IMG/VR virus record: IMGVR_UViG_3300020180_000104
Location: 1-27,631 of that record
Source of the DNA: a virus
Length of the DNA: 27,631 nucleotides
Reading direction: 5' to 3' (one strand)
Each line of letters begins with the position of its first letter. Position 1 is the stretch's first letter. Made by a program: the position numbers and the translations under genes. This document shows positions 835-26,094 of this stretch, in pieces. Under the pieces are notes generated by a model. The model searched no databases. It saw only the letters and a program-made list of their open reading frames with translations, and was not told where the DNA came from.

Positions 835-3039
835 ATGAAGCTAGTCACCTTTGATTTCGAGACCCATCCAATCGCCTTCGGCGCGGTCTACCCTCAGCCC
901 GTTTGCGTCATCGTAAACTCCGGCGAGGAATCGGTGGTTATCACCGACGGGGACGAGGGCGGGAAAGAGGGTATGGTCCAGCAGATAGCTGGCTTGCTCG
1001 CAGACGAGAGCTTGATACTAGCCAATCACTCGATGGCTTTTGATCTCGGAGTCCTGTGCGCGGCCAACCCCATGTACGTGTCTCAGGTGTACCAAGCCAT
1101 TATCGCAGGGCGTGTAGTCTGCACCCTAATCAGGGAGAAGATGCTCACGCTCGCCCAAACAGGCGACCTGTCTATGGGTGTAGGAGACGTAAAGGTTAAG
1201 CTCTTGTACGACCTAGCATCAGTGATGATGCGACGATTCAGCATTGACCGGAGCGAGGCCAAGGACGGTGAGTCGTCTTGGCGCAGGTATTTCGGGGTGC
1301 TCTCGGGTGTGCCTGGGGCAGAGTACCCACAAGGGGCACTGGACTACCTGACGAACGACGGCGACGACCCGTACCGGCTGTATTTGGACCAAGAGCAGCG
1401 CCGGAGCGTGCTGGCTCAGGAGATCGGTTGCGACCCGTTAGCCCAGCAATCCCTGCGAATGGCTCAGGCTTTCTCCTTGGGGATGATGTCAGCCTACGGT
1501 GTCTGCACCGACGCATCCGAGCACCAAAGAATCAAGCAGTGGGCGACCATAGAGAGTAGCGGACCCAACGTCGATCTCCTGATACAGAACGGCATGTTGG
1601 TGCCTGCACAGCCGCCCCGCGAACATCTGAAAATCGAAGGTAGGATGGTCAAAGCCCAGCCGGAGAAGATGTCCACCAAGATCATCCGGGAATACATCTT
1701 GGGATTGCACACCGAGAACCCCGAACTGATCCCCCTTCTCTATTCCGACCCGTCCACTAGGTTCCCTGACGGGCAGATCAGCTTCGCCAAAGAGTGGCTC
1801 GATGAAGTAGCGCACTTGGACCCCGTGCTTTCGCAGATCCAACACCGCCAAGCGGTGCAGAAGATCCTTAACACCGACCTACCTCGCATGACATCCCTCG
1901 ACGCAGAGGGGGAGCACACATCAGCCGTCTCGCCGGTGGTGTATGTCAACTACGACGTACTAAAAGAAACCGGGCGTACCAGTTCTTTCGCTGGGACTCT
2001 ATACCCCAGCTTTAGTTGCCAAAATGTTCACCCGGATGTTGCTGGGGTTATCGTCCCCCGTCCGGGGTACCTGTTTTTGTCGATCGACTACCAGCAGCTG
2101 GAGCTGGTTACTCTCGGGCAAACTCTCCTGAACCTTTTTGGCACGTCGATGCTGGCTAAGCTGATTAACGAGGGCGTGGATCTGCACGCATATCTAGGCG
2201 CTCAGATCGCCATGCGTATGTCGCTGCCCTTCCAGCAGCACTGCATAAACTGTCGGATCTCCGAGGCGATGGATGTCTACCGGGCATTCAAGGGCTTGAA
2301 GGACCACTCAGACCCTGCGGCCGTGGAGATCTACGGGCAGTACCGGAAACTAGCTAAGCCGACCGGGCTCGGATATCCGGGGGGGCTCGGCGCTAAAACG
2401 ATGGTGGCGTACGCACATCACACCTACGGCGTGAAAATAGACTACGACACAGCGGCGCTACTCAAGCAGATCTGGTTCGACACATTTCCAGAAATGCGGT
2501 TATATTTCAAACATATTACGAAAGACTGTCGAGACACCCGAAACGGCCCCCGGATGCTGGATCGAAAAGGACCGAGTGGGGTTACAGAGCTCGTCTCAAT
2601 GGATCTGTACGAATACACATCCCCGTTGGGGTTGTTCCGAGGCGGGTGTGCGTTCACGGCCGCAGCGAATGGGATAGGGCTCCAGACACCTGCCGCCGAC
2701 GGGGCATCTTTGGCCACGATCAGTCTGGTGAGGGCGTGCAGAGATCCGAACGGCGGATATCCAGACCTCCTGCCCGACAGTTCGGGCGTTCGGCTCATGC
2801 CGGTGCTGTTCATCCACGATGAGTTTGTTTCGGAAATCAGAGACTGTGAGGAGAAACACCTCTGGATTCCGCAGGCTCAACAGATTATGGTGGATGCTAT
2901 GCGGGTGATTTGCCCCGACGTTGCTGTTCGCACCGATGCGTGTCTTATGGATCGATGGAACAAGAAAGCCCAGCCCGTCTTCGATGATTTGGGCCGTTTG
3001 AGTGTCTGGAAACCCATGAAAGCAGGTTCTTATGTCTAA
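835..3039 (+). CDS. Family A DNA polymerase with 3'-5' exonuclease domain
   Basis: Replicative phage DNA polymerase of the Pol I/T7 type, 734 residues. The N-terminal proofreading exonuclease shows Exo I (D7, E9 in FDFET), Exo II (N64 to D70 in NHSMAFD) and Exo III (Y171xxxD175). The polymerase domain has motif A (D418 in SIDYQQLE), motif B/O-helix (R504, K508, then LGYPGG at 512-517) and motif C (H661-D662-E663). There is no 5'-3' exonuclease domain, as in other phage family A enzymes. The O-helix residue aligned with E. coli Pol I Phe762 is Leu512, and Gly516 replaces the usual Tyr766. ATG 835 is preceded by a GAGAG ribosome-binding site. The 3' end overlaps the next gene by 8 bases, indicating an operon with the small basic protein and the resolvase. 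Confidence 0.97.
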   Translation: MKLVTFDFETHPIAFGAVYPQPVCVIVNSGEESVVITDGDEGGKEGMVQQIAGLLADESLILANHSMAFDLGVLCAANPMYVSQVYQAIIAGRVVCTLIREKMLTLAQTGDLSMGVGDVKVKLLYDLASVMMRRFSIDRSEAKDGESSWRRYFGVLSGVPGAEYPQGALDYLTNDGDDPYRLYLDQEQRRSVLAQEIGCDPLAQQSLRMAQAFSLGMMSAYGVCTDASEHQRIKQWATIESSGPNVDLLIQNGMLVPAQPPREHLKIEGRMVKAQPEKMSTKIIREYILGLHTENPELIPLLYSDPSTRFPDGQISFAKEWLDEVAHLDPVLSQIQHRQAVQKILNTDLPRMTSLDAEGEHTSAVSPVVYVNYDVLKETGRTSSFAGTLYPSFSCQNVHPDVAGVIVPRPGYLFLSIDYQQLELVTLGQTLLNLFGTSMLAKLINEGVDLHAYLGAQIAMRMSLPFQQHCINCRISEAMDVYRAFKGLKDHSDPAAVEIYGQYRKLAKPTGLGYPGGLGAKTMVAYAHHTYGVKIDYDTAALLKQIWFDTFPEMRLYFKHITKDCRDTRNGPRMLDRKGPSGVTELVSMDLYEYTSPLGLFRGGCAFTAAANGIGLQTPAADGASLATISLVRACRDPNGGYPDLLPDSSGVRLMPVLFIHDEFVSEIRDCEEKHLWIPQAQQIMVDAMRVICPDVAVRTDACLMDRWNKKAQPVFDDLGRLSVWKPMKAGSYV

Positions 3040-3421
3040 GTCCAAGAAAAAAGTTAGTAAGGTTGCCCGCAAGGCTCCTCTCGCCAAAACCGATCTCGCC
3101 GGGGCGGCTCTCCAACGATCTGCAAAGGCGATTGCCGCTGCGGCGAAGAGATGGTACGACCCGACCTTTGCCAGAGTCATTGAGTCGATCCGCGCACTCG
3201 GCCCTAATTGCAGCGTCACCATCACCCCGCCCGCAGGGACCACGGTCGAGGGCTACATGCAGAAGATCTCTTCGGGGATGGTTCACCGAGCAAGGAGCAA
3301 GACATGCCCGCTGACACCCCCAAAAGGCCAGCGGTTTATCCGGCGGGTGCTGGGATCGTCGATCAGCATTTACACCGTCCCCGCTCGGAAATCTAAGACC
3401 TCGGCCCCGGATCGGCTTTGA
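3032..3421 (+). CDS. Small basic hypothetical protein
   Basis: 129 residues, not recognised. The N-terminus is very Lys/Arg-rich (KSKKKVSKVARK), which suggests nucleic-acid binding, but no named domain is visible. It starts inside the polymerase stop region (ATG 3032, 8-base overlap) and its TGA overlaps the TTG start of the resolvase, so the three are probably translationally coupled. Its place between polymerase and resolvase implies a replication or recombination role; this is inference from context only. Confidence 0.75.
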   Translation: MSKSKKKVSKVARKAPLAKTDLAGAALQRSAKAIAAAAKRWYDPTFARVIESIRALGPNCSVTITPPAGTTVEGYMQKISSGMVHRARSKTCPLTPPKGQRFIRRVLGSSISIYTVPARKSKTSAPDRL

Positions 3422-4639: not shown

Positions 4640-6118
4640 TTATTCCTTGAGCCCCTTCCCAGGATCTCGCCCCTCAGCCGATGCCTGTTGCGGGCTCTGT
4701 CTCATTCGAGAGACAGTATCCATGTTAATCAGCGGAATCTCTTCCGTGATTTTTGCCAGAGCGAAGTCCTCGATACCGAGTCCAAGGTTGGACCCCTTCG
4801 CTCCGAGCGTTTCCCCGAGGCGGGACTGAATCCTAGCTTGGACAGGACCGGTCCATAGAATCTGGAAGAGGCTTAGAGACATGGCAGCCTCGTTGGTCGC
4901 TCCCATCTTCCCCGGTATTTGAATTCCTGCGAGGATCGGAGGAACGCGGTGGGATGTGACGATCCGAGATGCTGTGGCGGCAAGGATGGTTTCTGATCCA
5001 TCCTCGTTCGACGCCACCATCCCCAGCTTCTCGATTTGCAGCTTGGCTTCAGTGGACTGGGTTTGAAGGGCGAGCGTCTTGTGGCTCTTACCCAAACCAA
5101 TGTGGTTTTGGAGTTGTTTTTCGATCGCCGTCCACTCCGTAGGCGAATACTTCACCCCACTTAAGAACAGGATAAACTCAGGCACTCCACGGTTCTGGTA
5201 GTGGTCGAATTGAAACTGCGTGGTCATCTGGCCTAGTTCAATTTGCGGTGTGCTGCTCAGCCATGCAGGCACGCCGTACCACAAATCTTGCCCCGAAGGC
5301 ACTCGAAAGTAGATGATCTCTGAGTAGTGGGTGCCGGGGGATTCCGCAAATCCCGTCTCCAAGTCACCCGACATAACCACGGGGACGCCCGAGGAATCCT
5401 CTGTTGCTTGGAGCAACGAACCGCTGCGACGTAAGGCACTCTCGTAGTCTCCGAACGAAGCTATCCGAATGTCGGTCCCCCCATGACGAGAGACTCGGAA
5501 GTGATACCCCCCTGACGGCTCCTCAACGAACCATACTCGCTCTACGGGCATCTGAAAAATCCCTACTATCTCGTTAGTTCCCTTTTTCCGGCGAACCTCG
5601 ATAGCCCCGTTCTCCAGGGATGCGATGTCCTCTGCGGTTGCCCCTAGAACATCCTGCCACCCGAAACGAGTGAGGGGGTCGAGGGCGATATCTACCTTCG
5701 ACTTCTGGAAGATCTTGCGAGACGGTTCCGGGGTGCCGGGGGTCGCAGCCTCTACCGATCTCTTCTGGTGTTCTTTCTGGCTATCCAGATTTCCCAGGCC
5801 GACCAGCGATGTTGTTTTTGCTGCTACGCAAGCTGCGTGATGAACGTCGCTCTGGTAGAGCCGCTTAGCCATAGCAAAGTCGAACGGGTGACTCTGCTCT
5901 CCGGATGACGCCGACAAGGTGTCTACGGATCTGAGCACTGTCGATGCGTCTTTGTGCAGCAATTCATGCAAACCCAACCCTGTCGGGTTTTCCTTCGTAA
6001 GAGGCTTGAAAAGCCTCGTGTTGGAGCGGCCGTACAGATCACCCAGTAACCGCGAGACCGCAGCGGGCATGGGGATGGGGTTGCTGGAATCGACCGAAAC
6101 GCGGTGCTCGTTGGACAT
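4640..6118 (-). CDS. Phage portal protein (PBSX/HK97-type)
   Basis: 492 residues, the usual size for a portal. The dodecameric portal forms the DNA entry vertex and binds terminase and neck proteins. The diagnostic stretch is at about 270-310: EIIYFRVPSGQDLWYGVPAW, then IELGQMTTQFQFDHYQNRGVPEF, the conserved core of PBSX-like portals (a YGxPxW motif followed by a helix ending in NRGVP). A second conserved stretch, RVPPILAGI..GKMGATNEAAM, follows. ATG 6118 is preceded by AAAGAG. The gene reads away from the protease and capsid genes, the reverse of the usual co-directional portal-protease-capsid order, and is tightly followed by the neck-like gene. Confidence 0.9.
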   Translation of the reverse strand: MSNEHRVSVDSSNPIPMPAAVSRLLGDLYGRSNTRLFKPLTKENPTGLGLHELLHKDASTVLRSVDTLSASSGEQSHPFDFAMAKRLYQSDVHHAACVAAKTTSLVGLGNLDSQKEHQKRSVEAATPGTPEPSRKIFQKSKVDIALDPLTRFGWQDVLGATAEDIASLENGAIEVRRKKGTNEIVGIFQMPVERVWFVEEPSGGYHFRVSRHGGTDIRIASFGDYESALRRSGSLLQATEDSSGVPVVMSGDLETGFAESPGTHYSEIIYFRVPSGQDLWYGVPAWLSSTPQIELGQMTTQFQFDHYQNRGVPEFILFLSGVKYSPTEWTAIEKQLQNHIGLGKSHKTLALQTQSTEAKLQIEKLGMVASNEDGSETILAATASRIVTSHRVPPILAGIQIPGKMGATNEAAMSLSLFQILWTGPVQARIQSRLGETLGAKGSNLGLGIEDFALAKITEEIPLINMDTVSRMRQSPQQASAEGRDPGKGLKE

Positions 6119-7793: not shown

Positions 7794-8864
7794 ATGTCTG
7801 CTGCATCTATCCTCTCTCCGTCGTTCCTGACGGATACCATCAATGCTATCAAGTCCCCCAACTCGTTTCTCAAGAACCTCCTCTACCCCGCAAGCGTGGA
7901 GCGGGCTATCCCATTGGAGAGGGTGGAAATCCCCATGTACGAGCGGGGCCGCGTTATCGCCCCGTTCGTGCGCCGCGGTGCCGAAGGCATCATGGTTGGC
8001 GGAACCACATCCAAGACGATCGAGGTGGAGGCTCCGAACATCCGCATTAAGCGACCGTTCACGGGCCGAGCTCTGATGTACACTCGCCGCCCCGGTCAGC
8101 CCATCTACCGTACGTCGAATGCGGAGATGATTAAATACGCCCGCGAGCAGATGCTCCGGGAATTGACCGACCTCGCCGACAGCGTAACCAACGCCGAGGA
8201 GTGGTTGGTGGCGATGTCCCTGCAAGGGGTGATTACCTACTCGGTCCCTGATGGCGATCACTTTACCATCACTTACCCTCGCTCGGCCTCGAACAACATC
8301 ACCCTCTCTACGTTCTGGAATGACGTCACCCCTGCCAACGTCAAGATTTTTACGAACATCTTGTCGGCTAAGCGGGTCGCCAGCGTGGACGGACACACGC
8401 TCACCGACGGTATCTGCGGTAGCGAAGCTGCGGCAGCTCTCGTGGGTCTGGTCGAGGGCGGCAACGTCAAGATGCTCGGATCTGACGGAACTAACGTCTC
8501 TGCTGGCGACGTCTCGTTCGTGGAGCAGTTTCGCAACGACGGGGCCATCTACCTCGGCAAGCTCGGCGGCATTCGCTTTTGGGAATACGCACGGACTGGC
8601 GTACTCAACGACACTACGGTTGATCTTATTCGACCGAAGTACGTTGAGTTCATCACGACCAGCCCGACCGCGGATCGCCAGATGATCTACGCGGCCATCG
8701 ATGACATGGACGCCATCGCGGAAGGCTTGGTCGTCCGCAAGCGATTCGCAAAGAGCTGGACGGTCCCTGATCCGTCAGCCACGATGGCTCTCGTCCAATC
8801 GAAGCCCCTTCCCATCCCACGACAGCTCAACGCATCAGTGTCCATGAAAGTCGTTTCAGGATAA
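7794..8864 (+). CDS. Major capsid protein (lambda gpE-like)
   Basis: 356 residues, the normal size for gpE-family capsid proteins with the HK97 fold. Family features seen: RPFTGRAL-type core with KRPFTGRALMYTRRPGQPIY (~residues 83-103), a helix with AEEWLVAMSLQGVITYSV (~140-155), GGIRFWEYA (~258-266) and a C-terminus PSATMALVQSKPLPIPRQ that is typical of gpE relatives. The N-terminus SPSFLTDTI also fits. A clear GAGGT ribosome-binding site precedes ATG 7794. It pairs with the gpD-like decoration gene 41 bases upstream and is followed by a hairpin terminator, as expected for a very highly expressed gene. Confidence 0.93.
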   Translation: MSAASILSPSFLTDTINAIKSPNSFLKNLLYPASVERAIPLERVEIPMYERGRVIAPFVRRGAEGIMVGGTTSKTIEVEAPNIRIKRPFTGRALMYTRRPGQPIYRTSNAEMIKYAREQMLRELTDLADSVTNAEEWLVAMSLQGVITYSVPDGDHFTITYPRSASNNITLSTFWNDVTPANVKIFTNILSAKRVASVDGHTLTDGICGSEAAAALVGLVEGGNVKMLGSDGTNVSAGDVSFVEQFRNDGAIYLGKLGGIRFWEYARTGVLNDTTVDLIRPKYVEFITTSPTADRQMIYAAIDDMDAIAEGLVVRKRFAKSWTVPDPSATMALVQSKPLPIPRQLNASVSMKVVSG

Positions 8865-10423: not shown

Positions 10424-11269
10424 ATGCCTGGCTCAAACACATCTGGAACGAGCAACACTTCCCACTACCTCCTCGGTCGTGGGATCATCCAGCTCTCACT
10501 TATCGACCCCATTACCGGCAACGCTGTAGGTGGCTTCCGAGACATCGGCAACGCATCGAGCTTTTCTCTCACCAACGAGAGCGAAAAGCTCGAACACCAG
10601 TCCAGCCGCGGAGGGCTGCGGATCACAGACAAGGAGGTTGAGATCAGCCGCAAGGTGAACGTCTCAATCACCACGGACGAGCTAAACGACGAGAACTTGG
10701 CTCTGTTCTTCTCGGGCGGTCAGGTGGTAATCACAAACCCGGCTACCGCAGGTTTCACCGAATGGACGATTGTTCCAGCAAGCCCCGGCGTCTCCCTCGC
10801 TCGGTGGTACCCCCTTACCAACTCGGCGGGCGTTCGCGCAATGGGGATCTTGAAGGCGAATCTCAACCTCAAGAACGCAACAACTAACACCTCGCTTGTT
10901 GAAGGAACCGACTTCGAGGTTGACGAGGCTCTAGGACTGGTCTTCATCAAGCCCGTCCCCACTAACATCACAGCGGGGGTTGGTCTCAAGGCCACGCTTA
11001 CCGCCCAGGCTGGCTCGAAGAACATCGATGAAGTTCGGATGCTCACGACGACCAACCAACCTTACATGCTCCGCTTTGTCGGCAAAAATCCGGCTGACGG
11101 CGACAGAGCGTACGAAGTCGTCCTCTACAAGATCACTCCCAAGGGAGAAGGCGACTTCGGCCTCATCTCGGATGAATGGGCGACGATGCAGATTACCGGC
11201 GTTGCGGAGGCCAATTCCGCGTTCAACGCCGCTTCCCCGTACGGGCATATCCGCAGCGTGAAGCTGTAA
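10424..11269 (+). CDS. Major tail tube protein
   Basis: 281 residues. The N-terminal region FRDIGNASSFSLTNESEKLE followed by HQSSRGGLR is typical of phage tail tube subunits, as is the C-terminal YKITPKGEGDFGLISDEWAT segment ending in ITGVAEAN. Hexameric rings of this protein form the tube around the tape measure. ATG 10424 follows AAGGAAACAACAA, a good ribosome-binding site. It precedes the tail-assembly chaperone frameshift and the tape measure, the order expected in siphoviruses, and is itself followed by a strong terminator. Confidence 0.88.
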   Translation: MPGSNTSGTSNTSHYLLGRGIIQLSLIDPITGNAVGGFRDIGNASSFSLTNESEKLEHQSSRGGLRITDKEVEISRKVNVSITTDELNDENLALFFSGGQVVITNPATAGFTEWTIVPASPGVSLARWYPLTNSAGVRAMGILKANLNLKNATTNTSLVEGTDFEVDEALGLVFIKPVPTNITAGVGLKATLTAQAGSKNIDEVRMLTTTNQPYMLRFVGKNPADGDRAYEVVLYKITPKGEGDFGLISDEWATMQITGVAEANSAFNAASPYGHIRSVKL

Positions 11270-11371: not shown

Positions 11372-11989
11372 ATGCCTCTGCCCTTCGTGCCTGCATACAT
11401 CGGAAAGACCATCTCTCACGTTGCGGAGGATTGGCTCGATCTCGCGGGAAAGCCTGTGGTGATTCAGATGCGACCCGTCACAGGGCGCATGTTTTTGGGT
11501 TTCAAGGATTTGCTGGAGACAGCCTCGGCAGCGATCTCGCGAATCTTCGACGTTCGGACGAACGACGTGGGCATGGATACCGTGAGCGATATTGGCATCT
11601 CGAACGATGTTGCTCAGTCGAGCATCACCAGAAATCTAACTACGTCCATCACGCCCGAGCTGGCGAAGATGCGATCGGACAACCGAGCATCTGCGTTCGG
11701 ATCTCTAGTCTCCGCCCTCCTGAGCGAAGCCACGCAAGGTTCGTTCTTTCAACTGATTTTCCATTCGTGGGTAAACAGACCGCCTCAGTTGACGAAGCCC
11801 GATGATATCGCAGACTTAGAGCTGCCCCAATTGTTCCAGCTCTTAACTGCTGTCATCAAAGCCAACAAGGGGGTGGCAGGCCCTTTGGCAGGAACCGGGG
11901 TGTGGAAGGATCTGATGAAGAAAGCAACAGACCGTCTCGCCCCGGCCTCCGCAAACTCCGTCGAAAGCAGCCCGCCAAACGAGCCCTAA
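11372..11989 (+). CDS. Tail assembly chaperone, lambda gpG-like
   Basis: 205 residues. Cytoplasmic chaperone that holds the tape measure during tail assembly. The call rests on position (between tail tube and tape measure) and on the -1 frameshift near its 3' end, rather than on sequence motifs. ATG 11372 follows AAGGA with 8-base spacing. Ribosomes that do not slip end at TAA 11987-11989. The slip occurs at codons Pro171-Leu172. Confidence 0.85.
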   Translation: MPLPFVPAYIGKTISHVAEDWLDLAGKPVVIQMRPVTGRMFLGFKDLLETASAAISRIFDVRTNDVGMDTVSDIGISNDVAQSSITRNLTTSITPELAKMRSDNRASAFGSLVSALLSEATQGSFFQLIFHSWVNRPPQLTKPDDIADLELPQLFQLLTAVIKANKGVAGPLAGTGVWKDLMKKATDRLAPASANSVESSPPNEP

Positions 11990-12309
11990 ATGTCTCGGCG
12001 GCCAAGGATGCTAGTTGGATTGAGTTGCAGGACTTGATTCTATGGTGCTCGGTAGTTTCCCACCAGACTATCGACTACGTGTTAGATCTTGACTTGCACG
12101 CCCTCGACTCGTTCCACGGTTCTTGCATCCGTCTTCACGCCAGAGCTGCAATGGAAAATGTGTCAAACTACCTTCTAGCCAGCCGTGGCGATCAGGAATC
12201 TATGCGAAAGTTTTTGAGGGCGAACCATCGCATCTTAGATGAAGCCACCGGGGCGGGGGATCGCAACGATTTGGGCGAGCTACTTCGAGCGTCAGGAGGA
12301 GGTATCTAA
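11372..12309 (+). CDS. Tail assembly chaperone gpGT-like fusion (by -1 frameshift; extension 11887-12309)
   Basis: After slipping one base back on CCCTTTG (11881-11887), translation continues in the -1 frame from 11887 to TAA 12307-12309, giving about 312 residues: the first 172 of the gpG-like protein plus a 140-residue extension containing ASWIELQDLILWCSVVSHQT. The -1 frame has no stop between 11887 and 12307. In lambda, the G-T product recruits tail tube subunits to the tape measure. The extension has no good start of its own; GTG 11902 has no ribosome-binding site. The stop overlaps the tape-measure ATG as TAATG. Confidence 0.8.
11881..11945 (+). other. Programmed -1 ribosomal frameshift site
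   Basis: The heptamer C CCT TTG (11881-11887) fits the X XXY YYZ slippery rule in the gpG frame, so both Pro and Leu tRNAs can re-pair one base back. Seven bases downstream, CCGGGG (11895-11900) pairs perfectly with CCCCGG (11940-11945), with two more pairs possible inside (a wobble and G-C) and a ~34-base loop. Such a stem is the usual stimulator at tail-chaperone frameshift sites. Confidence 0.8.
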
Positions 12310-12311
12310 TG
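12294..12311 (+). promoter_or_regulatory. Strong Shine-Dalgarno and TAATG start of the tape measure
   Basis: AGGAGGAGGT at 12294-12303 precedes ATG 12309, which overlaps the TAA of the chaperone by one base. It fixes the tape-measure start. Confidence 0.85.
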
Positions 12312-15300
12312 CCTGTAGATCGTGGAGGGCTCGATTACCCCATCAATGTCGGAGATGGTTTCTCCACCAACCTGACCGCTTTCACGGAAGGCGCTAAGGC
12401 AGCCCGCAAAGAGATCGAGGCGCTTGCGACAGCTGCCGCTAACCTCAAGGGGTTGGCGGCTGCTGCTCGCGAGGTCGCGAAGGCCAGCGCCACGCAAGGG
12501 CGAGAAACCAAGAAGGCCGCGACTGCTTCAGCCGAGAAATCTCAGCAGGAAGACGTAGCACTGCGGAGGTACAGGAATCGTCTGCGAGAAGTGCTTATTG
12601 AGAGACGGATTGCCAACATCGATGCTATCAACGCTTCGAGGCTAGCGGGAACGCAGCAAACGGCTAACGAGAAGCGGGCAGCAGGGGAGCGACGGCTAGC
12701 GAACGTCATCAACGTCCGGGCAGCGGCCGCAGCGAACCTTGCGGCGGTCCAGCGAACGGGGATAGCCCTATCGACGCAGGAGCAAGCCCGCCTCGGGCTT
12801 TTGAACACCGAACAACTCAGGTCGTTGCAGATCACGAAAAAGTTAGAGGGTGTAAAGACCGACACGTCTAGCGCTTCGATACGTAGTTCTCAGGTAGAGA
12901 TCGCGGTTCTAAAGCGGCAAGCCCAAGCCGCGAACGAGTTGCGTGTTGTCGAGGCGCTCCGCGCCCGCGGCCTCAACGCGAGAGGCGTGGCTGTCCCTCT
13001 GCCCGCAGCGCCCGGATTACTAGAGCGAATCAGGAACTTCAGCGGCCTCTCCTCGGCGATCGGCAAAGCGACCGACTCGGCTAACCGAGCATCGTTCACC
13101 TTCCGAAGGCTGTTTGGCATCCTCGCAGCGTTCACAGCCGTTCGCTTAGCACTACAGGGTTTCCGCAGCCTTATCACCGAGCTGATTCGGTACAACGCGA
13201 ACATTGAGCAAGCGACACTGGGCATCACATCTCTTTTCGTCGCGGTCGGTGACGTGCGAGACGCGACCGGGCGGGCGACGACAGCCGCCTACGGCTTGGC
13301 TCTGGCACAGAAGGAAGCTCGCCGACAGACCGCACTACTCCGCAGAGATTCGCTCGAAACCGCGGCAACCTTTGAGCAGCTCTTAGAGACGTTCCAGGTG
13401 GCGGTTGCCCCCGGACTCCAGGCGGGCTTGGATGTAGATCAGATCCGCGAGTTTACGGTCAGGATCAGTCAGGCGGCAGCAGCTGCCGGGGTTGCTCAGA
13501 ATCAGCTTGCCGAAGAAATCCGATCCATTCTTTCGGGGACGATCCAAGTCCGCACCACACGCCTAGCGGTGGCGCTGGGCATCACGAACCAAGACATTCG
13601 AGACGCCAAAGCTGCGGGCGTTCTCGTCGAGTTCCTCAATAAGAAGTTCGAGGCGTTCCGGGCAGCCGGAGTGCTCAGCCTCAACACTTTCAACGCTCTG
13701 TTTACGAACACCCAAGAGGCCATCCAGCGAGTACTAGAGTCCGGAGGGCTCAACTTTTTCTTATCGGTTAAGAGCACCCTCAAGGAAATTTTCGATATCC
13801 TCATTAACGCCGACCCGATCACAGGGCTTCTAACTCCCGACCCTCGGGCTGTGGCTGTGGTGAAAGTATTCGGCGACGCTCTAGTTTCGGTTCTGGAAGC
13901 GGCACGAGAGGCCGCACGTTCGCTAGATACTAACGCAGCGGTTAATGCGGCCAAAGCCCTTGCGGGCGGCATATTGTTTGCGACCAAGGTCACCATTTCG
14001 TTTATCCGGGGCTTCCTTAGCGGCCTTAGCGATATAGGCTCGGCGGTTGAACAAATCTTTAAGCTTTTCGGGGGTAAGAGCCCGTTAGATAATCCTGGCC
14101 TCCAGAAGTCAATAGGGCTTCTCGGACGAGTTCTCGCCATCTCGTTAGCGATCGCCGCAACGGCCTCAATCGTAAAGCTCTTGATGGCCCCTATCTTTTT
14201 GGGTATCGGGTTTTTGCATACGGTAATGGGGCCGCTGGTGTTGGCGTGGCGAGCGATAGCCCTCTTGGTCCCCCTCATCTTTGCGGGGGTGGGACTTATT
14301 AGCGTCCCCGTCCTCGTGATATCTGTTGCGGTGATCGCCATCGTCGCCAGCTTGGGGGTTGGTTTTGTCCTTTTGCAGGGATGGCTGTCAAAGCTTACGG
14401 GATTGGATCTCAAGTTCTCTTCGATCGCGAAAATACTGAAGACCGGGGTTACGGCGGCTTTGGATGTTGCGGCCTTATCGGTCAATTCCTACTTCGCGAA
14501 AATCTTCAACGAATTAAAGCTTCAGGTTCTGAAGTCATCGGCTCTCGCAGTCGATACTGTGCTAGGGCTCGTGCAGGAAGCACTATCTGCCATCGGAACT
14601 CTTAGTTCCGCAGCATCCGCAGCAGCTACGGCCGTCTCAATAACCAGGGCCGGCATATCCAGCGATATCGCGGAGCAAATCTCTAAGACGGCTTTAGACC
14701 TCGCACAATCTGCCGCTGCGTACGACGCCGCCCGGTCGGCCCTGTTCGGCGCTGCGGCTGGCGACATCGGAAAGGCGCTACGGGGCAACGCCTCCGCCCT
14801 CGGCTTCGCTGACCTCGTAAAATCCGGACTGACAAAGGCTTTCGCTTTTATCAAGAGCCAAAAATTCGGAGTGGCACTGTTTGAATCTTTGGGGTTGAAA
14901 GACACCAATAAGCTGCTTGGAGAGGCCAAGGATCTATTTGATTCGATGCTGGCCGCCCCTCGATCCTTAGTTGCTGAGTTTGATGCTATGCCCGGCATCG
15001 TCGGACTCGTCAACCAGAGACTCAAGGACAACGCCGATCTCCTCAATTCGATGGCCGACAGTGCTCGTGATGCGGCCGACGAGTTGCGTCAAGGCTCCGC
15101 CACCATCGGGCTAGATGGGGACGGCCTGCGAGCAAGGCAAGAAGCGTTCAAGACAGAAGCTCAGATTCGCCGCCAGTCCGTTGACACCCTCTTGCAGATC
15201 CAACAGTTGGAGGCTCGACGCATCACCCTTCTAGGGCAGCGAGCGCAAAACGAATCCCGCATCGCCTCCCTCGGAGACAAACAACGAGAGCAGGTCCGGG

Positions 15301-17000
15301 AATCTCAACAGGGACTAGAAAAGATCGTCGGGCTACAGAACGATCTAGCCCAACTGCAAGATAAGGCCGTTATCTCTCGGCTCCGCAGTAACAAGCTATT
15401 GAGTTTAGGGTTGGTCGAACAGGCGGACGCGGCTAAGGTCGAAGCCGCAGCCAATCAAGACGGTGTGGACGCACTCGAAAAAAGAATCCAACTCCTCAAA
15501 GATGCGGCCGAGATTGCGTTGAAGTCGGCCGGGTTCAATGCAGGGGATCAGGGGAAAATCATAGATTCAACCCTGGCTCGCATCCGCTCTGCGGGCGAGC
15601 TTCGCTTGATCGAAGAACAAATCTCGAATGTTGAATCCGACCGCATCGCCATAGCTCGATCCCTAAACGATGTGCTATCGCAGAGACTGTCCCTGATTGC
15701 CTCTGAGTCTGCATACACCGCCCGGAGAGTTGCGTCGGAAATCCGGATACAGCGAATTCAGATCCAAGCGGAGATCTCGTCCCGAGATCAGCTCAACAAC
15801 GCAGCTAAGAGGCTGACTCTCGCTGAGGCTGAGCTAACGACCTTAGAGGCTCAGACGCAAATCTCGGAACGACTCCGAGAGCGAGAAGCGTCCGATCTGG
15901 ACCAGCTCCTAGCCCAACGCAAGGAATACCTCAATAGCCTGGAGGAGAGCCAAGCCACGGTGGTGTCGGGGTCCGAGGACGAGCTAACCCTCCTCCAGCA
16001 AATCGCCACAGCCCAAGCTGCGGTGAACGCCATAGCCTCGGCCCGAGAGGCCGTCCAGACGAGGAACGCGAACGCTACCGCACTCGAAGCCGAACAGATC
16101 GATCTGCTTCTGCAACGAGCTCGGGACGCCAAGAAAGAGCTAGAGGAGCCAATCACCTTTGGTTTGGAGAAGGGCCTAGAAGAGTTCGTCAACAAGTCCC
16201 TCGACCTGTTCTCGGAAATGAAAAACATCGTCGTTAGCTCCCTCGATGGTCTTTCGTCTTTGATCTCCTCTTCGATCGTAGACGCCTTCGACCCCTCCAA
16301 CGATAAAAGCTTCCGGGATCGCTTTCGCTCATTCCTGAGCTCGGTAGCGGAGCAGATCATTCAGATGTTAGTTCGGCTTGCCATCGCTAAGGCGGTGCTC
16401 GGCTTAGGATTCCTTGGGGGTGGGGGCCAGGCGGGGGCTGCCGTAGGGTTTGCCTCGGGCGGCCATGTGAAGAAGAAAAAGCCTGTGGGCGGTATGGGTT
16501 TTGCCAGCGGTGGCTCGTCATCTCTCGGTGCTGGCTTCAACGGACGCATTGCCTCGGGGCTGCGAACAGGCGGGATTGGATCGGTCATAGACGCGATTCG
16601 CCCCTCCGGCTTAGACGCCCGCGACCGCATCCCGGCGTGGCTTCGTAAGGACGAGTTCGTGCTGGTGCCCGAGGCCGTCAAGGCTTACGGGCTGGGCTTC
16701 ATCTCAGACCTCAACAACCTCCTCGTTGATCCCTTCCAAATCAAGACTTTCTTGGGTTTGTTCGGCCGCTCCAACAGTGCCAAGAAAAATGGGAGGCTTG
16801 GGTTCGCGTCGGGGGGTAGCGTGGGCGGTTCGTCGATATCCTCCGCAATCTCGGCCGGAGGGGGTGTAGGTCCGACTCCGGCGTACATCATCGCGGACGA
16901 GGCTGCTGCTCAAGCACTCCTCACGAACGGCAAGCGGGCGTTCCTCGATTTCCTGAGACAAAATAAGAGCTCGTTCATGGCGGGAGAAAAATACCGATGA
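12309..17000 (+). CDS. Tail tape measure protein
   Basis: 1563 residues, the longest gene in the window. It sets tail length and helps eject DNA. Residues ~25-210 and ~900-1310 are rich in Ala, Arg, Glu and Gln with long coiled-coil-like stretches. A strongly hydrophobic stretch spans ~603-695 (several membrane-like segments), as in tape measures that insert in the inner membrane. The C-terminus has GFASGG at about 1380, 1397 and 1498 and a conserved-looking DRIPAWLRKDEFVLVPEAV motif of the GEYV type. Using the usual ~1.5 A per residue the tail would be about 230 nm (estimate from family rule). A strong Shine-Dalgarno precedes ATG 12309; its TGA overlaps the next ATG by 4 bases. Confidence 0.95.
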   Translation: MPVDRGGLDYPINVGDGFSTNLTAFTEGAKAARKEIEALATAAANLKGLAAAAREVAKASATQGRETKKAATASAEKSQQEDVALRRYRNRLREVLIERRIANIDAINASRLAGTQQTANEKRAAGERRLANVINVRAAAAANLAAVQRTGIALSTQEQARLGLLNTEQLRSLQITKKLEGVKTDTSSASIRSSQVEIAVLKRQAQAANELRVVEALRARGLNARGVAVPLPAAPGLLERIRNFSGLSSAIGKATDSANRASFTFRRLFGILAAFTAVRLALQGFRSLITELIRYNANIEQATLGITSLFVAVGDVRDATGRATTAAYGLALAQKEARRQTALLRRDSLETAATFEQLLETFQVAVAPGLQAGLDVDQIREFTVRISQAAAAAGVAQNQLAEEIRSILSGTIQVRTTRLAVALGITNQDIRDAKAAGVLVEFLNKKFEAFRAAGVLSLNTFNALFTNTQEAIQRVLESGGLNFFLSVKSTLKEIFDILINADPITGLLTPDPRAVAVVKVFGDALVSVLEAAREAARSLDTNAAVNAAKALAGGILFATKVTISFIRGFLSGLSDIGSAVEQIFKLFGGKSPLDNPGLQKSIGLLGRVLAISLAIAATASIVKLLMAPIFLGIGFLHTVMGPLVLAWRAIALLVPLIFAGVGLISVPVLVISVAVIAIVASLGVGFVLLQGWLSKLTGLDLKFSSIAKILKTGVTAALDVAALSVNSYFAKIFNELKLQVLKSSALAVDTVLGLVQEALSAIGTLSSAASAAATAVSITRAGISSDIAEQISKTALDLAQSAAAYDAARSALFGAAAGDIGKALRGNASALGFADLVKSGLTKAFAFIKSQKFGVALFESLGLKDTNKLLGEAKDLFDSMLAAPRSLVAEFDAMPGIVGLVNQRLKDNADLLNSMADSARDAADELRQGSATIGLDGDGLRARQEAFKTEAQIRRQSVDTLLQIQQLEARRITLLGQRAQNESRIASLGDKQREQVRESQQGLEKIVGLQNDLAQLQDKAVISRLRSNKLLSLGLVEQADAAKVEAAANQDGVDALEKRIQLLKDAAEIALKSAGFNAGDQGKIIDSTLARIRSAGELRLIEEQISNVESDRIAIARSLNDVLSQRLSLIASESAYTARRVASEIRIQRIQIQAEISSRDQLNNAAKRLTLAEAELTTLEAQTQISERLREREASDLDQLLAQRKEYLNSLEESQATVVSGSEDELTLLQQIATAQAAVNAIASAREAVQTRNANATALEAEQIDLLLQRARDAKKELEEPITFGLEKGLEEFVNKSLDLFSEMKNIVVSSLDGLSSLISSSIVDAFDPSNDKSFRDRFRSFLSSVAEQIIQMLVRLAIAKAVLGLGFLGGGGQAGAAVGFASGGHVKKKKPVGGMGFASGGSSSLGAGFNGRIASGLRTGGIGSVIDAIRPSGLDARDRIPAWLRKDEFVLVPEAVKAYGLGFISDLNNLLVDPFQIKTFLGLFGRSNSAKKNGRLGFASGGSVGGSSISSAISAGGGVGPTPAYIIADEAAAQALLTNGKRAFLDFLRQNKSSFMAGEKYR

Positions 17001-24440: not shown

Positions 24441-24640
24441 GTGGGTGTTCTTCGCTTGAGCCTCTCCGCCAGCGAGCGAGCGCCCTGCCCCGGCCGAGGG
24501 TCTACCGCGACGATCACCGATTGCCTTGTGGCCACGCAGCCGCAACTGTTGCAGACCATGCGGGCCGTAGTGTTCCCCGGACCCGCCTGATAGACGTGGG
24601 TTGGGTGCATCGAACCTCCCCCGCACTTAGGGCAGATCAC
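24422..24640 (-). CDS. Small zinc-ribbon protein
   Basis: 72 residues from GTG 24640, which overlaps the terminase TGA as GTGA; GTG 24679 inside the terminase gene is a less likely longer alternative. It has CPKCGG near the N-terminus and CNSCGC (MVCNSCGC) about 25 residues later, so four Cys can bind zinc. Small Ogr/Delta-like or transcription-accessory phage proteins have this layout, but no DNA-binding function can be shown from sequence. The basic, Lys-rich C-terminus (LKRRTPTKKPEG) supports nucleic-acid contact. The gene ends within the rightward terminator. Confidence 0.7.
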   Translation of the reverse strand: MICPKCGGGSMHPTHVYQAGPGNTTARMVCNSCGCVATRQSVIVAVDPRPGQGARSLAERLKRRTPTKKPEG

Positions 24641-26094
24641 CCCGACCCCCCGAGCAGCGAGCACCGAGAATGATTGCACGGAGCATCGCTCATTACCTGA
24701 GTGGCGCAGTCCGCGCGGTCAGGAGACTCGTGCCCGCGAGCAACGTAATCATCTTTTTTCTCCAACACCAACTTGCCTTTGGCGTCTGTGAAGTACAGCC
24801 TAGTTGCTAGTTGGGTCAGCAGCATTTGATCCTTCGGCAAGTGGACGCGGGGAAGCCCGCCGCACACCCTATGGTATCTGACTTTGCTCCTCAAGCTGAA
24901 CCAAGCCTCTGCATCCCGTTGCTTGTATTGTGGGGAAACTGCGGAGGTGTTGTGGCTGCTCCACTCGAAAACGTTCTTGCCGGCCTCATAGAAGAGGCCA
25001 ACTACCCCCTGCCCCATGCCCGCCACGTCGGGGACGTACAGAGTCTCTTTGTTGTTCCAGCCCGCCCGTGCCTGCATGGCCATCGCCAGCCTCGCAGTCT
25101 CGGTCGGCTCTTGATGGGGAAACCTCTGCGTCTCCACGATGGCCTCGCCTCGGCGGCGCATGTTCACCGACTCATCCCCGCCGAACCGAGCGAAGTCGGT
25201 GGCTATCTGCTTGGCAATACCTCCGTCGAGGGGCCTGTCACTGGACGCGCACCGCAGTAAATCGCCGTCATCCCCGCAGCAATCCATCAACTCTTCCATA
25301 GAAAAAACGCAATTAGGGTCTGTGAGGGGAAACTCTCCGAGCACACGGACCCGATATACGTCGCTGTCTCTACCAAACTCGTTCTCTGTGTCTTTGTTTC
25401 GGTCAGGGTGGACGATGTTTGGATAGTATTTCGCTGTGTCCTCAGCGTTGAAATGCAGCTTTTTCCATCGGGAATTATCGAAGCCGTAGAACGAATCGAA
25501 AAACTCGCTGTCTCTAGTGTTGGGATTTCCAATTAAGAGCAGGAGAGCCCCTTGGGGGTGGTTGGACAGAGTGTTCTTGTATTGCGTGATGATCTCACGA
25601 GAAACACCCGATGCCTCCTCGACAATGATGAACAGATTGGGGTTGTGATAGCCTTGAGCGTTCACATCCTTGGTGGCCGTGGCGAGCTGAATCCCCCAAT
25701 CCTTCTGCCCAAAACAGATTACGCGGCTGTCCGTCACTTCGATCTTGGATCGAATGGCAGGATGCGCCCTTTGGATCAGTTTGCGGAACTCGGCCAGCCA
25801 GACCCGCTGGCACTGCCGCATCGTCGGAGCTGTGACAATGCCGAGGGCTTGGTGGTCGCAAAAGACCCTCCAAGCTGCCGCGATGCAGGAAACGGTTGTC
25901 TTCCCAGGCCCCTGTCCGCTGCGAACGGTTATGCGGTTAGATCCCACACCAAAACGGGCATCTTGAACCGCCTGCAACAAACCGCACTGCTGATACGTCG
26001 GAGCGAACCGCAGGGCCTTGCAGAAGGCGAAAATGTTAGACCGTAATTGGGCGTATGCCGAGTTGAAGTCGGCTATCTGTCTCGCAGAAGGCAT
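24637..26094 (-). CDS. Terminase large subunit
   Basis: 485 residues. ATP-driven packaging motor and nuclease. Walker A is SGQGPGKT (59-66); Walker B-like LFIIVEEASG has E159-E160 after the hydrophobic strand; LIGNPN (187-192) fits the coupling motif. The nuclease domain has ATDFARFGGDE (D300), a YVPDVAGMGQGV stretch (D356) and the C-terminal HESPDRADCA (D459/D462), consistent with the RNase H-type metal-binding acidic residues. No small subunit is seen adjacent. ATG 26094 follows the upstream membrane gene by 7 bases; its ribosome-binding site is weak (GAAGG farther upstream). Confidence 0.93.
   Translation of the reverse strand: MPSARQIADFNSAYAQLRSNIFAFCKALRFAPTYQQCGLLQAVQDARFGVGSNRITVRSGQGPGKTTVSCIAAAWRVFCDHQALGIVTAPTMRQCQRVWLAEFRKLIQRAHPAIRSKIEVTDSRVICFGQKDWGIQLATATKDVNAQGYHNPNLFIIVEEASGVSREIITQYKNTLSNHPQGALLLLIGNPNTRDSEFFDSFYGFDNSRWKKLHFNAEDTAKYYPNIVHPDRNKDTENEFGRDSDVYRVRVLGEFPLTDPNCVFSMEELMDCCGDDGDLLRCASSDRPLDGGIAKQIATDFARFGGDESVNMRRRGEAIVETQRFPHQEPTETARLAMAMQARAGWNNKETLYVPDVAGMGQGVVGLFYEAGKNVFEWSSHNTSAVSPQYKQRDAEAWFSLRSKVRYHRVCGGLPRVHLPKDQMLLTQLATRLYFTDAKGKLVLEKKDDYVARGHESPDRADCATQVMSDAPCNHSRCSLLGGSG

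Follow-up and report, generated by a model that had tools for sequence, protein, structure and literature searches.

Tailed phages are well known for making two products from one gene by a -1 slip. In lambda, the ratio of gpG to gpGT is about 30:1, with the T domain binding the major tail protein and G binding the tape measure (PMC5009743). According to the account of Xu et al. (2004) given in PMC5009743, lambda-type G/GT pairs also occur in other dsDNA phages. For dnaX and many IS elements, it is established that a Shine-Dalgarno sequence stimulates -1 shifting (PMC5009743). With a strong stimulator, 61 of 64 X XXZ ZZN heptamers shifted in E. coli, and C_CC.U_UU.G was outside the three failures; among A-site codons, UUU and UUC were efficient and mixed ones such as UUG were weaker (PMC4066793).

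The window analysed here is the entire IMG/VR record IMGVR_UViG_3300020180_000104, comprising 27,631 bases. A pair of reading frames, G and T, was located between the genes for the major tail protein and the tape measure. We put the probability at about 93% that programmed -1 frameshifting yields a minority 312-aa G-T fusion beside the 205-aa G, and that the two act like lambda gpG/gpGT. As judged from the sequence, the signal is real, conserved and ordinary in kind, and it lies in a putative tail chaperone family that is undescribed.

The G/T gene pair and its neighbourhood

The source virus classifies as a siphovirus by its predicted head and tail gene content. The window was annotated with a head maturation protease, a head decoration protein, major capsid protein E and tail genes, the structural genes further including a major tail protein with an Ig-like domain and a tape measure. 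The major tail protein gene was located upstream of G at 10424..11269 (+; PHROG phrog_807, E 2e-46). Downstream, the gene at 12309..17000 (+) encodes a tape measure protein of 1563 aa, matching Tape_meas_lam_C with an E value of 7e-4, which is below the curated cut-off. Used as a query, the tape measure also retrieved relatives of the window. No Rfam family was found anywhere in the window, and a scan of host genome contigs found no relative of the virus. The portal and large terminase genes, at 4640-6118 (-) and 24637-26094 (-), run against the direction of the capsid and tail genes and are separated by about 20 kb, which makes for an unusual gene order. The protease probably starts later than its listed GTG at 5919, since the portal ORF overlaps this position.

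G was located at 11372..11989 (+). Its product from standard decoding has 205 aa and was designated a tail assembly chaperone by position, based on the reading frame, the gene place and a weak fold similarity. The -1 frame spans 11806-12309 without interruption; the ATG of the tape-measure gene, at 12309, overlaps the stop codon of this frame. T, the extension in this frame, comprises 140 codons at 11887..12309 (+; coordinates include the stop), so that the predicted shifted product G-T has 172 + 140 = 312 aa. The sequence-only reading had already described a -1 frame open for 140 residues to the tape measure and a 205-residue product beside a fusion of about 312 residues; both the open frame and the lengths were reproduced. 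T domains of the relatives were homologous and shared the motif W..LQD..V....G...DYVL.LDL..F..L..S..R. In one relative, L074, an additional ORF (2025-3247) separated the T extension from the tape measure. Such an ORF is reportedly also present in HK97 and KL1.

No named chaperone among the PHROGs and Pfam families matched G or T, and two relatives matched the phrog_1442 tail assembly chaperone with an E value of 0.036 at best. The structural model of G had a mean pLDDT of 76. In the fold search it weakly matched phage proteins, several of which carry the name tail assembly chaperone, with E values above 0.001; the best named chaperone match showed a probability of 0.97, an E value of 0.037 and a TM score of about 0.4-0.5. 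A search of the PDB returned neither a sequence nor a fold match, and the fold search with the T model gave no clear match. The locus adds a putative tail chaperone family that is unmatched in PHROGs and Pfam and recognisable only by its frameshift.

The frameshift signal and its conservation

The slippery heptamer C CCT TTG was located at 11881..11887 (+), in frame with G, where the 0-frame codons 170-172 read GGC CCT TTG (11879-11887). Position and frame agreed with those given in the sequence-only reading, which had recognised the X XXY YYZ rule. Within the window alone, the heptamer was not significant by count or by codon shuffling: CCCTTTG occurred four times versus 4.5 expected, and when the codons of G were shuffled, some in-frame X XXY YYZ fell into the overlap in 24% of the trials. 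Its significance comes from the relatives, in which it is conserved.

The search with the tape measure resulted in 63 IMG/VR loci. Homologues without a -1 extension had been proposed beforehand as grounds for refuting the frameshift; the arrangement of G with a -1 T frame was present in nearly all loci whose sequence covers the upstream region. Codon statistics on loci selected by site class were biased and were superseded by a test on relatives picked by the G protein motif only, an Asn motif followed a few residues on by Pro-Leu or Pro-Phe (n = 24). NNC CCT TTN was encoded by 22 of these, versus 0.78 expected from their own codon usage (P 2.5e-36, relatives treated as independent). The codon before Pro ended in C although the residue varied between Gly, Arg, Ala and Asp. 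Both exceptions fit the frameshift reading. L039 encoded Pro-Leu as CCC CTG, but had GGGAAAA at the next codons. L037 kept the GPF motif as GGC CCG TTC (~2767-2775), one base off, and was the only one without a recognised slippery site, although its -1 T frame was open. The reading frames, the heptamer, the flanking elements and their conservation in diverged relatives were thus observed directly. Conservation of the slippery codons went well past the demands of the protein sequence, and the interpretation as a frameshift is supported because both NNC CCT TTN and the -1 extension were conserved in the relatives.

CCCTTTG had been called less common than GGGAAAG. In this lineage it was not rare, being one of the two commonest among nine heptamers, with 12 of 50 non-redundant loci, next to GGGGGAG with 13 of 50. 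CCCTTTG is an unusual heptamer, yet typical of this lineage. An earlier use of CCCTTTG for -1 shifting in a phage tail chaperone was not found in the open-access literature; the use of CCCTTTN by phages is now well supported. A modest shift would suit a minority product.

A Shine-Dalgarno-like stretch, AAGGGGGT, was identified as candidate upstream stimulator at 11867..11874 (+), ending 6 nt before the heptamer. It was missing from the sequence-only reading. The 22 nt before the heptamer showed a pairing energy of -11.8 kcal/mol with the 16S anti-Shine-Dalgarno, the strongest of the positions tested in the gene, and L023-L026 had an SD-like element in the same place. Downstream, folding predicted a stem-loop at 11895..11945 (+) after a spacer of 7 nt. 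Its outer stem pairs 11895-11902 with 11938-11945 in 8 bp, including one T-G wobble, and is followed by a weaker inner stem; this matches the earlier claim of a stem of up to 8 bp beginning 7 bases downstream. The 73 nt past the heptamer folded at -31.4 kcal/mol (z -3.7), and the 60-nt window right after the site ranked in the top 1.6% by folding strength when compared with the G and tape-measure genes of the same virus. The energy of a wider 143-nt fold around the site was not unusual (z -0.7); only its downstream part was. With an SD-like element upstream and a stem that begins 7 nt past the heptamer, inside the 5-9 nt range of such signals, the predicted elements form a dnaX-like three-part signal. 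A stem or SD-like element universal to the family was rejected, both being patchy among the relatives: many had no unusual structure at the site, and L030 (= L004) had neither stem nor SD-like element. SD-like elements were stronger at CCCTTTG than at CCCTTTA and CCCTTTC sites (p 0.0075; 0.04 after thinning of close relatives), in an exploratory comparison with a modest association among non-independent relatives. This hints at a compensation for the weaker UUG.

From the sequence and the analogy to lambda, we infer ribosome shifting, its rate and a chaperone role as follows. An elongating ribosome with CCU in the P site and UUG in the A site would meet the stem 7 nt ahead, while the 16S 3' end would pair with AAGGGGGU behind it. 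The tRNAs would slip back by one base to pair with CCC and UUU, and reading would go on as GGC and further into T. G and G-T would then serve as chaperones, covering the tape measure and bringing in the major tail protein.

Alternative origins of the two frames were weighed against this. T could be translated separately from an internal start, with no fusion, and the window offers a GTG at 11902 in the T frame, five codons past the slippery site and behind a short SD-like stretch (AGGA, 11890-11893). This GTG falls within the predicted stem. Start codons near the site were almost absent from the T frames of the relatives, which led to the rejection of T as a separate gene: the sole exception was a TTG in L045, seven codons on, and all others had no start within 28 codons past the site, the closest ones (L023 and L025) showing their first start 29-39 codons on. 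No conserved independent start for T was found across the relatives, as expected of G/GT-type genes. An internal start would also leave the conservation of NNC CCT TTN unexplained, and it is very improbable. Overlapping ORFs in different frames can also come from an indel, in a broken gene or in the assembly, with no programmed event. The contig L003, with 98.9% nucleotide identity to the window, showed the same frames without gaps and the -1 relation was kept in diverged relatives, by which an indel artefact was refuted; practically no weight was given to this explanation.

Slippery runs can affect RNA polymerase as well, and transcriptional slippage would put some mRNAs in the -1 frame with no shift of the ribosome. 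The slippage known from the literature involves about nine consecutive A or T residues (PMC5009743), whereas CCCTTTG is free of long homopolymers and the phase of C CCT TTN relative to the codons was conserved, so that this origin is hardly credible. A real shift could instead depend chiefly on the SD-like element and the stem, with UUG shifting poorly and P-site re-pairing on CCC as the main event. The weaker UUG in E. coli (PMC4066793) and the stronger SD-like elements at TTG sites point in this direction, but the latter association carries the limits given above and the TT of the A site was kept in every CCCTTTN member. We consider this version unlikely and favour programmed -1 frameshifting with re-pairing of both tRNAs.

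Changes of the slippery site across the family

The 50 non-redundant loci comprised 23 with CCCTTTN, 12 with GGGAAAN and 15 with GGGGGAG or GGGGGAA. Placing these as three pure site classes on the tape-measure tree required at least 10 changes. The 15 relatives of the last class (L044, L046, L048-L050, L055-L057, L059, L060, L062, L065, L068, L069 and L081) lacked an X XXY YYZ there and had an invariant NNG GGG GAR instead. Their codon before GGG, encoding Ala, Thr, Ser, Met, Lys, Val or Leu, always ended in G, and Gly was always GGG. Two sites occurred together in four relatives (e.g. CCCTTTGGGAAAG): CCT TTG GGA AAG in L024 (~2835-2848), CCT TTG GGG GGA AAG in L026 (~2762-2778), CCT TTG GGG GAA in L032 (~2874-2887) and CCT TTA GTG GGA AAG in L076 (~2769-2785). 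L024 and L026 were sisters of L027, which had GGGAAAA alone, with a tree support of 100/98. These tandem sites are plausible intermediates of site switching, which would let the site move without loss of the product.

More tentatively, and at somewhat less than even odds, the slippery site of this lineage of uncultured siphoviruses may be mobile, having switched at least 10 times among CCCTTTN, GGGAAAN and the irregular GGGGGAR, 2-3 codons apart, via cooperating tandem forms (CCCTTTGGGAAAG, CCCTTTGGGGGGAAAG, CCCTTTGGGGAA), while the strengths of the SD-like element and stem would have been retuned to hold the G:GT ratio. The relatives represent a natural series on how a slippery sequence can change while the product ratio is preserved. 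In two more distant viruses, L009 and L010, which were found by the major tail protein, the gene preceding the tape measure contained an in-frame A AAT TTT (AAATTTT; ~8276-8284 and ~5932-5940, respectively), and the -1 frame was open.

Comparison with known systems

A CCC UUU core is likewise present in the tail chaperone gene of E. coli phage 9g (CCCUUUUUUU), but with a longer U run and a reported -2 shift (PMC4276943). The GGGGGAR relatives, and not the site of the window, belong to the same class as the 'fivetwo' GGGGGAA of actinobacteriophage tail chaperones, which is known by annotation and was explained by G:U re-pairing (PRFect, PMC10885494).

Named relatives found by the major tail protein were mostly Casjensviridae (Chi-like; e.g. 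Xanthomonas phages FoX4 and AhaSv, Achromobacter phage phiAxp-2), with about 30% identity in this protein and the same layout. Each of their G/T overlaps contained one X XXY YYZ, but this was AAAAAAN, GGGAAAN or TTTTTTG, and G had about 120-170 aa in the relatives examined versus 205 aa here. Comparison of their G/T profiles with G and T of the window gave no alignment, homology being undetectable in this way.

E. coli dnaX shares the arrangement of an upstream Shine-Dalgarno, a heptamer and a downstream stem. There, the SD spacing is about 10 nt, whereas the element is nearer here (6 nt) and the shift lengthens the product. The dnaX heptamer is A AAA AAG, with an efficiency of about 50% (PMC5009743).

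The locus resembles lambda G/GT in the gene place between major tail protein and tape measure, the -1 shift near the 3' end of G, the T extension just before the tape measure and the X XXY YYZ heptamer. It differs in having CCCTTTG in place of GGGAAAG and in the added SD-like element. With this gene place, a second, -1-frame ORF that stays open past the end of G and runs up to the tape measure, and a conserved heptamer, the pair fits a G/GT-type -1 frameshift chaperone, a type defined by place and frameshift and carrying no claim of descent from lambda G.
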